Both the position numbers and the translations under genes were made by a program. From Candidatus Cloacimonadota bacterium (GTDB lineage: Bacteria; Cloacimonadota; Cloacimonadia; JGIOTU-2): a DNA stretch of 41,778 bases. Within the stretch, counting starts at the first letter, position 1, and each line of letters begins with the position of its first letter. Shown piece after piece: positions 40,662-41,778 of the stretch. The notes under the pieces were generated by a model, which did no database searches, had not been told where the DNA came from, and was given only the letters and a program-made list of their open reading frames with translations. The stretch is from positions 1-41,778 of the forward strand of contig JAUWPE010000007.1 of NCBI GenBank assembly GCA_030611765.1. The letters are read 5' to 3'.

Positions 40662-40680
40662 GCATACCCCAAAAAAAATT
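40662..40680. repeat. Solo copy of the GCATACCCC-type motif
   Basis: TGCATACCCC followed by a run of A and TTC resembles the left end of the MITE-like element at 31624-31642 (TGCATACCCCC then AAAAATTT). No matching opposite end is seen nearby. It may be a degenerate end of a related element. Confidence 0.35.
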
Positions 40681-40690
40681 CTCCTCTCAC

Positions 40691-40710
40691 TCCCAAGCCC
40701 CAGCTTGGGA
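40691..40710. repeat. Perfect 8-bp hairpin
   Basis: TCCCAAGC (40691-40698) and GCTTGGGA (40703-40710) with a 4-base loop CCCA. No T tract follows, so it is not an evident terminator; similar 'TCCCAAGC' hairpins are found as intergenic repeats in many bacteria. Confidence 0.6.
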
Positions 40711-40728
40711 ATGCATAATAGATCCCAA

Positions 40729-40744
40729 TCCGCCAGATGGCGGA
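40729..40744. repeat. Perfect 6-bp GC-rich hairpin
   Basis: TCCGCC (40729-40734), loop AGAT, GGCGGA (40739-40744). It lies just before copy R1 of the RAYT-linked repeat. Confidence 0.55.
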
Positions 40745-40749
40745 GGACT

Positions 40750-40877
40750 TCAATAAATCTACTTCGAATCCTAACCTGTCGGGGCGTAACGAAGTGAAGA
40801 CTGAAGCGCAGCGAGGATTCGAGGTATTGTTTCACTTCAAAACTCGACTCCTTGTCGCTTCACTCCTTAGGAGTCGA
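40750..40877. repeat. RAYT-linked palindromic repeat, copy R1
   Basis: Starts TCAATAAATCTACTTCG. Hairpin 1: CTTCGAATCCT (40762-40772) with AGGATTCGAGG (40814-40824), one mismatch. Hairpin 2: TCGACTCCT (40844-40852) with AGGAGTCGA (40869-40877), perfect 9-bp arms. The loop region of hairpin 1 has about 30 bases absent from copy R2. The RAYT stop codon (40867-40869) lies inside hairpin 2. Confidence 0.85.
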
Positions 40878-41451
40878 TGAATATTTTATTTTCTTTTTTA
40901 TCATCAACCCACTTTGAATATTCTTGTATCATTTGTTCATATTCGTCTAAATATTCGCTGAAGATCTCTAATGTTTCGGGAGAAGTTAATTTATCAGGTT
41001 GTTTCATAATAAAATTTCGATAATTTGAATATTTCCATTCTATTGGATTACTTACGAGACCTGCTTTAACTGGATTATTGTGAATATATAAAGCTAACTG
41101 AATCAAATATTTCTCATTAAAAATTTTAATATGCTGAAGTTTTTCCTGAAAGATTGGTCCTTTGCGCTTTAATTTATAGTTGAGATGTCTGACATATGGA
41201 GACAGCGAATGATTGAATAACGAATATAAAGGTTTTTCAGAATCCTGTCTGATTAAAAAATGAAAATGGTTTGGCATCAAACAATAAGCAAAAATAGTTG
41301 CTGGATAATTATTTAATACATTGCCAAATCTTTGTAAGAACCATAAATAGTCATTATCTTTGTAGAATAACTTTAAGGTTTGCATTGTTTTATTATAGAT
41401 ATGAAAAATGGAACCTTTTGTGAAATCATCTTGACTACATCTCTTTATCAT
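40867..41451 (-). CDS. REP-associated tyrosine transposase (RAYT, Y1/IS200-like)
   Basis: 194 residues; Y1-type HUH nuclease. The metal-binding HUH motif is His62-Phe-His64 in 'AYCLMPNHFHFLIRQ'; candidate catalytic tyrosine is Tyr115 in 'EKYLIQLALYIHNNPVKAGL', the helix-and-NPV pattern typical of RAYTs; 'WKYSNYRNF' follows as usual. N-terminal 'GSIFHIYNKTM' is also typical. Size fits RAYTs. A TTGAGGT box upstream of the ATG lies in repeat copy R2 and the last codons (IDS, stop) lie in the hairpin of copy R1, so both gene ends are formed by the repeat. RAYTs move or maintain palindromic REP sequences; there are no IS200-style left/right ends beyond these repeats. Confidence 0.92.
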   Translation of the reverse strand: MIKRCSQDDFTKGSIFHIYNKTMQTLKLFYKDNDYLWFLQRFGNVLNNYPATIFAYCLMPNHFHFLIRQDSEKPLYSLFNHSLSPYVRHLNYKLKRKGPIFQEKLQHIKIFNEKYLIQLALYIHNNPVKAGLVSNPIEWKYSNYRNFIMKQPDKLTSPETLEIFSEYLDEYEQMIQEYSKWVDDKKENKIFIDS

Positions 41452-41462
41452 ATTTTATTACC

Positions 41463-41558
41463 TCAATAAATCTACTTCGAATCCTAAGCGCAGCGAGGAT
41501 TCGAGGTATTGCTTCACTTCAACCTCGACTCCTCGTCGCTTCGCTTCTTAGGAGTCGA
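41463..41558. repeat. RAYT-linked palindromic repeat, copy R2
   Basis: Hairpin 1: CTTCGAATCCT (41475-41485) with AGGATTCGAGG (41496-41506). Hairpin 2: TCGACTCCT (41525-41533) with AGGAGTCGA (41550-41558), perfect. It begins immediately upstream of the RAYT start and supplies its TTGAGGT ribosome-binding site on the minus strand. Confidence 0.88.
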
Positions 41559-41605
41559 AATTGATTGATTAATTTTAATATAAATTGTGTCAATATTTTA
41601 TCACC

Positions 41606-41675
41606 TCAATAAATCTACTGAGGTATTGTTTCACTTCAACCTCGACTCCTTGTCGCTTCGCTCCTTAGGAGTCGA
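41606..41675. repeat. RAYT-linked palindromic repeat, copy R3 (hairpin 1 deleted)
   Basis: Same start (TCAATAAATCTACT) and same hairpin 2 (TCGACTCCT 41642-41650, AGGAGTCGA 41667-41675) as R1 and R2, but the whole hairpin 1 is missing: CTACT joins directly to GAGGTATTG. The 13 bases before it (41593-41605) match those before R2 (41450-41462) at 12 positions, so R2 and R3 share flanking sequence as well. Confidence 0.85.
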
Positions 41676-41778
41676 AATTGAGCGTTTCTTATTTCCCCAA
41701 AACTTGACAACCAGACCTCCCACTTTGCTTTTCTCTTACTTTACGTATAGGATGTTAATTACGTGATAATAAGCCACC
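41676..41778. other. Right edge of window, no gene seen
   Basis: About 100 bases beyond copy R3. A TTGACA hexamer is at 41704-41709 without a fitting -10 box. No ORF, RNA gene or further repeat copy is visible. Confidence 0.4.

Follow-up and report, generated by a model that had tools for sequence, protein, structure and literature searches.

Within a stretch of 41,778 nucleotides from a Candidatus Cloacimonadota bacterium (the window; contig C122 of genome G000, other genomes, contigs and loci being designated by G, C and L numbers), a transposase-like gene is enclosed by palindromic repeats, and both ends of the gene are made of repeat sequence. This arrangement raises the question of whether the repeat is the substrate of the encoded enzyme, and whether gene and repeats are moved or controlled together as one block. 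As judged from the evidence given below, the block is very probably a REPtron, that is, a REP-associated tyrosine transposase gene (RAYT; a Y1 HUH single-strand nuclease/transposase of the TnpA-REP type) bordered by its own REPINs.

The RAYT gene is located on the minus strand (40867-41451) and encodes 194 amino acids, as identified from the open reading frame, Pfam and NCBIfam matches, alignment, PDB profile and predicted fold. The protein matched Pfam Y1_Tnp with 24.1 bits (cutoff 23) and NCBIfam REP_Tyr_transpos (NF047646) at 2e-21 with 76.3 bits, just under the cutoff of 80. The HUH motif and the catalytic tyrosine of Y1 transposases are both present, and the catalytic residues H62-F63-H64, Y122 and N126 were invariant in a 23-row alignment of relatives. 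A PDB search with the single RAYT sequence gave no match; with the RAYT profile, the sole chain found was 4er8 (TnpA-REP; 5e-10). For the AlphaFold model (mean pLDDT 89), 4er8 was again the nearest structure, followed by IS200/IS605 TnpA. Other RAYT genes exist in G000, the next one being 48% identical to the window RAYT, and the subfamily of the window RAYT is represented by one gene per genome.

Three copies of the repeat surround the gene. The intact copy R2 (41460-41565; recognized from sequence and fold, and used as the BLASTN query) is located upstream of RAYT and includes hairpin 1 (TCGAATCCT-AAGCGCAGCG-AGGATTCGA; arms 41477-41485 and 41496-41504) and hairpin 2 (TCGACTCCT-AAGAAGCGAAGCGACG-AGGAGTCGA; arms 41525-41533 and 41550-41558). 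Copy R1 (40750-40877), containing the 3' end of RAYT, is composed of a leader, hairpin 1, a spacer and hairpin 2. Its hairpin 1 (40764-40822; arms TCGAATCCT at 40764-40772 and AGGATTCGA at 40814-40822) carries an enlarged loop (about 41 nt, as compared with the usual 10 nt), and its hairpin 2 (40844-40877) is formed by arms at 40844-40852 and 40869-40877. Copy R3 (41603-41681; the tRNA-Thr side taken from contig C90) abuts the upstream region of tRNA-Thr and has lost hairpin 1, CTACT being directly joined to GAGGT at 41619/41620; only hairpin 2 remains (41642-41675; arms 41642-41650 and 41667-41675). Of the three two-hairpin copies originally described, therefore, R2 stands in full and R1 in enlarged form, but R3 does not, while the description of hairpin 2 as perfect holds for all three copies, each with a 9-bp stem.

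When read on opposite strands, hairpins 1 and 2 turn out to be two versions of one and the same REP in inverted orientation (TCGAxTCCTAAG...AGGAxTCGA), and each intact copy is thus a REPIN, i.e. two inverted REPs within one hairpin. As single-stranded DNA, R2 folds into one long hairpin of -26.8 kcal/mol, against a mean of -11.5 for shuffled sequences (z = -6.8; none of 200 shuffles equalled it). When eight copies from G000, G006, G005 and G007 were aligned, 97.9% of the cells were paired; comparison of the G000/G006 rows with those of G005/G007 shows compensatory changes, the two outermost base pairs of hairpin 1 being altered in both arms. This fold and the occurrence of about 15 further genomic places rule out a repeat arisen by chance. 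Directly 5' of the hairpins, no GT[AG]G head was found at any foot, the 5' feet being CTACT, CAATT and ACC.

The physical fusion of gene and repeat was confirmed at both ends. A Shine-Dalgarno-like GAGGT box, the complement of 41460-41464 at the outer end of R2, precedes the ATG (41451-41449) by 8 nt, and at the other end the codons GAC TCC TAA (40867-40875, minus strand; TAA at 40867-40869) lie in R1 hairpin 2, with GAC TCC and the first base of TAA within the arm AGGAGTCGA. A comparable arrangement was found in the orthologs of G005 (65% identical), G007 and G003 (63%). These proteins end with LIDFDS* and LIDFDY*, the stop again being in a hairpin, and an RBS-like stretch is located between the REPIN and the ATG, TTGGAGGAGAAATG being the stretch comparable to the window in G005. 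The NtrC-type gene upstream of RAYT in G005 and G007 also ends with a REPIN-supplied TTC GAC TCC TAA. The sequence TCGACTCCTAA provides a ready-made in-frame stop, which is used by RAYT and by the NtrC-type gene of G005 and G007.

For a wider view, a set of 51 RAYT genes was analysed, nearly all from Cloacimonadota and two from Marinimicrobia. A repeat shared by both flanks was detected for all 51 at E ≤ 0.01 and for 46 at 1e-6, while a control with shuffled upstream sequences gave 2/51 and 0/51, respectively, ruling out a chance overlap of gene ends with the repeat. The flank repeat starts no later than the last base of the stop codon in 17 of the 51 genes at E ≤ 0.01 (11 at 1e-6). Tight fusion is therefore common among the relatives, with different REPs, and is not unique to the window gene. 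The overlap of RAYT ends with REPINs would follow from the close bordering of RAYT genes by REPs.

The proposal that the repeat is the partner of the enzyme is supported by the relatives: RAYT and this REP/REPIN very likely belong together as a cognate pair, since the repeat flanks the ortholog in G005 and adjoins it in G003 and G007. Among 41 relatives examined by BLASTN, the repeat is present in all four with a RAYT at least 60% identical and in 2 of the 37 without it (G006 and G009), giving p = 1.5e-4 with relatedness uncorrected. By a covariance model within the 17-genome family, the association was not significant (p = 0.10, relatedness likewise uncorrected). Throughout the phylum, the same model, which matches its building sequences by construction, detected related repeats in 23 of 125 genomes, some of them having RAYTs 43-48% identical to that of the window; directly beside a RAYT, such repeats were found in G090 (C157) and G082 (C193). 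In the phylogenetic tree, the window RAYT was grouped with those of G005 and G007 (support 100/100); next closest to it, at a fork with weak support, were those of G082 and G090, which carry the related REPs. RAYT type and REP type go together, consistent with an enzyme and its substrate, and such a relation is probable for the window pair. The RAYT contigs of G007 (C19; L122/L041) and G003 (C96; L123) are near-identical, and the MBL-fold loci of these genomes differ from each other (90% and 73% to the window); one of the two bins may hold a foreign contig.

Most likely, the enzyme would recognize the REP hairpin in single-stranded form, and nick and rejoin the DNA next to the hairpin foot. 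By such cleavage, REPINs could be copied, excised or recombined, possibly being mobilised in trans.

The block resembles the RAYT/TnpA-REP REPtrons of gammaproteobacteria (Nunvar 2010, PMC2817692; PMC8266576) in several respects: the Y1 HUH protein is related to 4er8, cognate palindromic REPs border the gene, in many cases at the stop codon or directly behind it, and a single gene is accompanied by dispersed intergenic repeats and inverted REP pairs (BIME/REPIN). In contrast, the canonical GT[AG]G head, located 5' of the hairpin (PMC2817692, PMC6006769), is missing from the window repeat, the flanking REPIN doublets are in direct orientation, about 15 places are occupied instead of tens to hundreds, and the host belongs to the phylum Cloacimonadota. 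Flanking hairpins of a non-GTAG type, with copies elsewhere in the genome, are also known for TnpA-REP subclass 2.6 with atypical secondary structures (PMC6006769), a likeness of the flanks and not a class assignment. In other bacteria, genes next to a repeat take their stop codon from the repeat terminus, and flanking repeats overlap the 5' or 3' ends of tyrosine-transposase genes (PMC3733652). REP-supplied stops and 3' overlaps have thus already been published for other bacteria (PMC3733652; PMC2817692); the stop of those REPs, however, is a TAG from the GTAG head (PMC3733652), whereas that of the window is a TAA from inside the palindrome. A literature search combining Cloacimonadota and REPIN found no paper. 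Most work on RAYT/REPIN systems has concerned gammaproteobacteria, and a clear REPtron lineage is seen here in Cloacimonadota, with atypical REPs and a gene-repeat fusion conserved across species. Counting against the REPtron reading are the missing GT[AG]G head, the NCBIfam score below the cutoff, the repeats in the RAYT-less genomes G006 and G009, and MITE-like neighbours of the repeat.

How the repeats were dispersed is less clear-cut. BLASTN with R2 detected about 15 further places in G000 outside the window, and none of 17 clusters on 15 contigs of G000 is located inside an ORF of at least 100 aa. This count is a lower bound, many copies standing at contig ends, and the repeats probably broke the assembly of G000. 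One gene per REP type together with dispersed extragenic repeats, as is characteristic of RAYT/TnpA-REP, was thus observed. The further intergenic copies anticipated by the original prediction do exist, but the expected absence of the repeat from genomes without the RAYT was found only in part, G006 and G009 retaining a few.

The possibility that all the dispersed copies are products of RAYT was rejected, because the copies have flanks in common. These flanks represent a MITE-like element with inverted termini GGGATACCCCCAAAAATT / AATTTTGGGGGTATGCC. The repeat lies between both arms of the element in three contigs of G000, namely C121, C30 (where the left arm is truncated) and the 16.5-kb C130, as it does in C31 of G006, and is adjoined by one or both arms in C4, C123/C124, C151, C1, C73, C106, C10 and C60. 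REPIN-free copies of the element were identified in C43 and C141, and inspection by eye of L009, L149 and L005 showed direct repeats, about 10-14 bp long, on both sides of the element. Since most of the dispersed copies are in or beside the element, RAYT need not have spread them. Chances are even that most of the copies are cargo of an element mobilised by a transposase, with RAYT acting mainly near its own gene; against this, no transposase was found for the element, and it encloses neither the repeats that surround the RAYT genes nor those located at tRNA-Thr in G006 and G009 and at NtrC in G000. From these flanks, MITE-like spread is a serious alternative to spread by RAYT, with the caution that an unrelated mobile element can raise the copy number of REPINs.

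The MITE-like element, which has GGGATACCCCCAAAAATTCGATG / AAAATTTTGGGGGTATGCC as its termini and varies in its interior, was observed in G000 contigs C121, C30, C130, C4, C43, C73 and C141 (L160, L161, L164, L166, L234, L159 and L237). In 7 of 8 copies, a TTGAC(A) box follows the right end at a distance of 18-20 nt, as would be expected if the element inserted just upstream of promoters.

Besides the spread of REPINs within the REPtron reading, movement of the whole block was considered, in which the REPtron left the NtrC site of G000 and is now located between the MBL-fold gene and tRNA-Thr. The order NtrC-REPIN-RAYT-REPIN was detected in G005, G003 and G007, whereas the syntenic NtrC site of G000 (C85) contains a single REPIN, split by two insertions, and no RAYT. 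A 10-base stretch of this site agrees with the RAYT 3' end at 7 positions, a match equalled by about 0.2% of random 10-mers, and RAYT looks to have been lost from here in G000. Beyond the MBL gene, most of the relatives checked differ from the window and carry no RAYT. An ortholog of NtrC was found in just four genomes of the family, those with RAYT. Next to the solo hairpin 2 of this NtrC site, in G000 C85 (L169; 6222-6597 of the reverse complement), there is a second insertion of the MITE-like kind, bounded by CAACTAACATTTCCCA / TGGGAAATGTTAGTT.

A simple move away from the NtrC site at first looked attractive, but is improbable in view of the RAYT, NtrC and hairpin-1 divergences. Among themselves the RAYTs of the NtrC site share 76% identity, but with the window RAYT only 62-65%, whereas the three NtrC proteins do not differ in this way (79-81% identity throughout), so that the window RAYT looks like a separate lineage. 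Moreover, hairpin 1 of the NtrC site is AGGAATCCT, unlike TCGAATCCT of the window. Because the divergences of RAYT and NtrC are unequal and the type of hairpin 1 differs, two REPtron lineages with differential loss would explain the sites better than one moved gene.

The tRNA-Thr site is filled by a REPIN in G000, G006 and G009, with no RAYT in the latter two, and is free of REPIN in G002 and G003. The REPIN of G006 and G009 is of the window type, which also argues against relocation of the block. Insertion of the REPIN as a unit at an empty site may account for the filled and free states, but G006 and G009 carry in addition a neighbouring 4.5-kb gene at this site. In G004 (C206; L311), a run of N is present at the tRNA-Thr site where G006 has the REPIN. 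The last 141 bases of the window (41638-41778) are identical to the ends of C185 and C90, indicating a branch of the assembly at the tRNA-Thr flank. Contigs C122 and C185, as two left neighbours of one tRNA-Thr end, may represent strain variants or a recent duplication, which leaves some doubt about where the block ends on the right.

Movement of the block as a unit, as suggested originally, gained no support from gene number, since the subfamily has one gene per genome and no second RAYT block was found. Excision of the REPtron as a unit is likewise doubtful; REPINs in direct orientation on both sides of RAYT, as at the NtrC site of G005, would permit loss of the gene through recombination or the action of the encoded enzyme, with one REPIN left as a scar in G000 and reappearance in the window. 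RAYT genes are described as keeping their chromosomal location (PMC2817692), REPtrons as not transposing as a unit (PMC6006769), and it has been stated that evidence of tnpA-REP mobility is lacking (PMC8266576). Unit movement, if true, would contradict the last statement, but nothing here overturns the published immobility of REPtrons. The NtrC site, at which presence of RAYT and a RAYT-less scar can be compared, is a place to test movement of the gene.

The other part of the block proposal, control as a unit, was not supported. The GAGGT box lies at the end of the repeat, with a comparable arrangement in G005, and a precedent is known in ISPpu9, of which the transposase is controlled by mRNA structure over the RBS (PMC8450116). 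In the predicted mRNA fold of the window gene, however, the strong REP-REP stem does not include GAGGT, which is covered only by a weak A-U stem. A device controlling RAYT translation through the RBS-bearing repeat is accordingly quite improbable, even more so than unit movement. Since the model predicts disorder for residues 190-194 of RAYT, including the REP-encoded end, the fusion is probably tolerated or neutral instead of being a control device.

Least likely of all, and by a wide measure improbable, is an ordinary IS200/IS605 insertion sequence, which shares the catalytic fold and the subterminal hairpins at both ends, but differs in that the window gene is not multicopy (one gene of the subfamily per genome), that doublet REPINs replace the single LE and RE hairpins at the borders, and that the nearest solved structure is TnpA-REP.

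In addition to the REPINs, short palindromes of the CCAAGCCCCAGCTTGG type and the CCGCCAGATGGCGG type were observed in the window at 40680-40746, where they adjoin R1, and in L005, L008, L011 and L243; the CCAAGCCCCAGCTTGG type also recurs within the arms of the MITE-like element.
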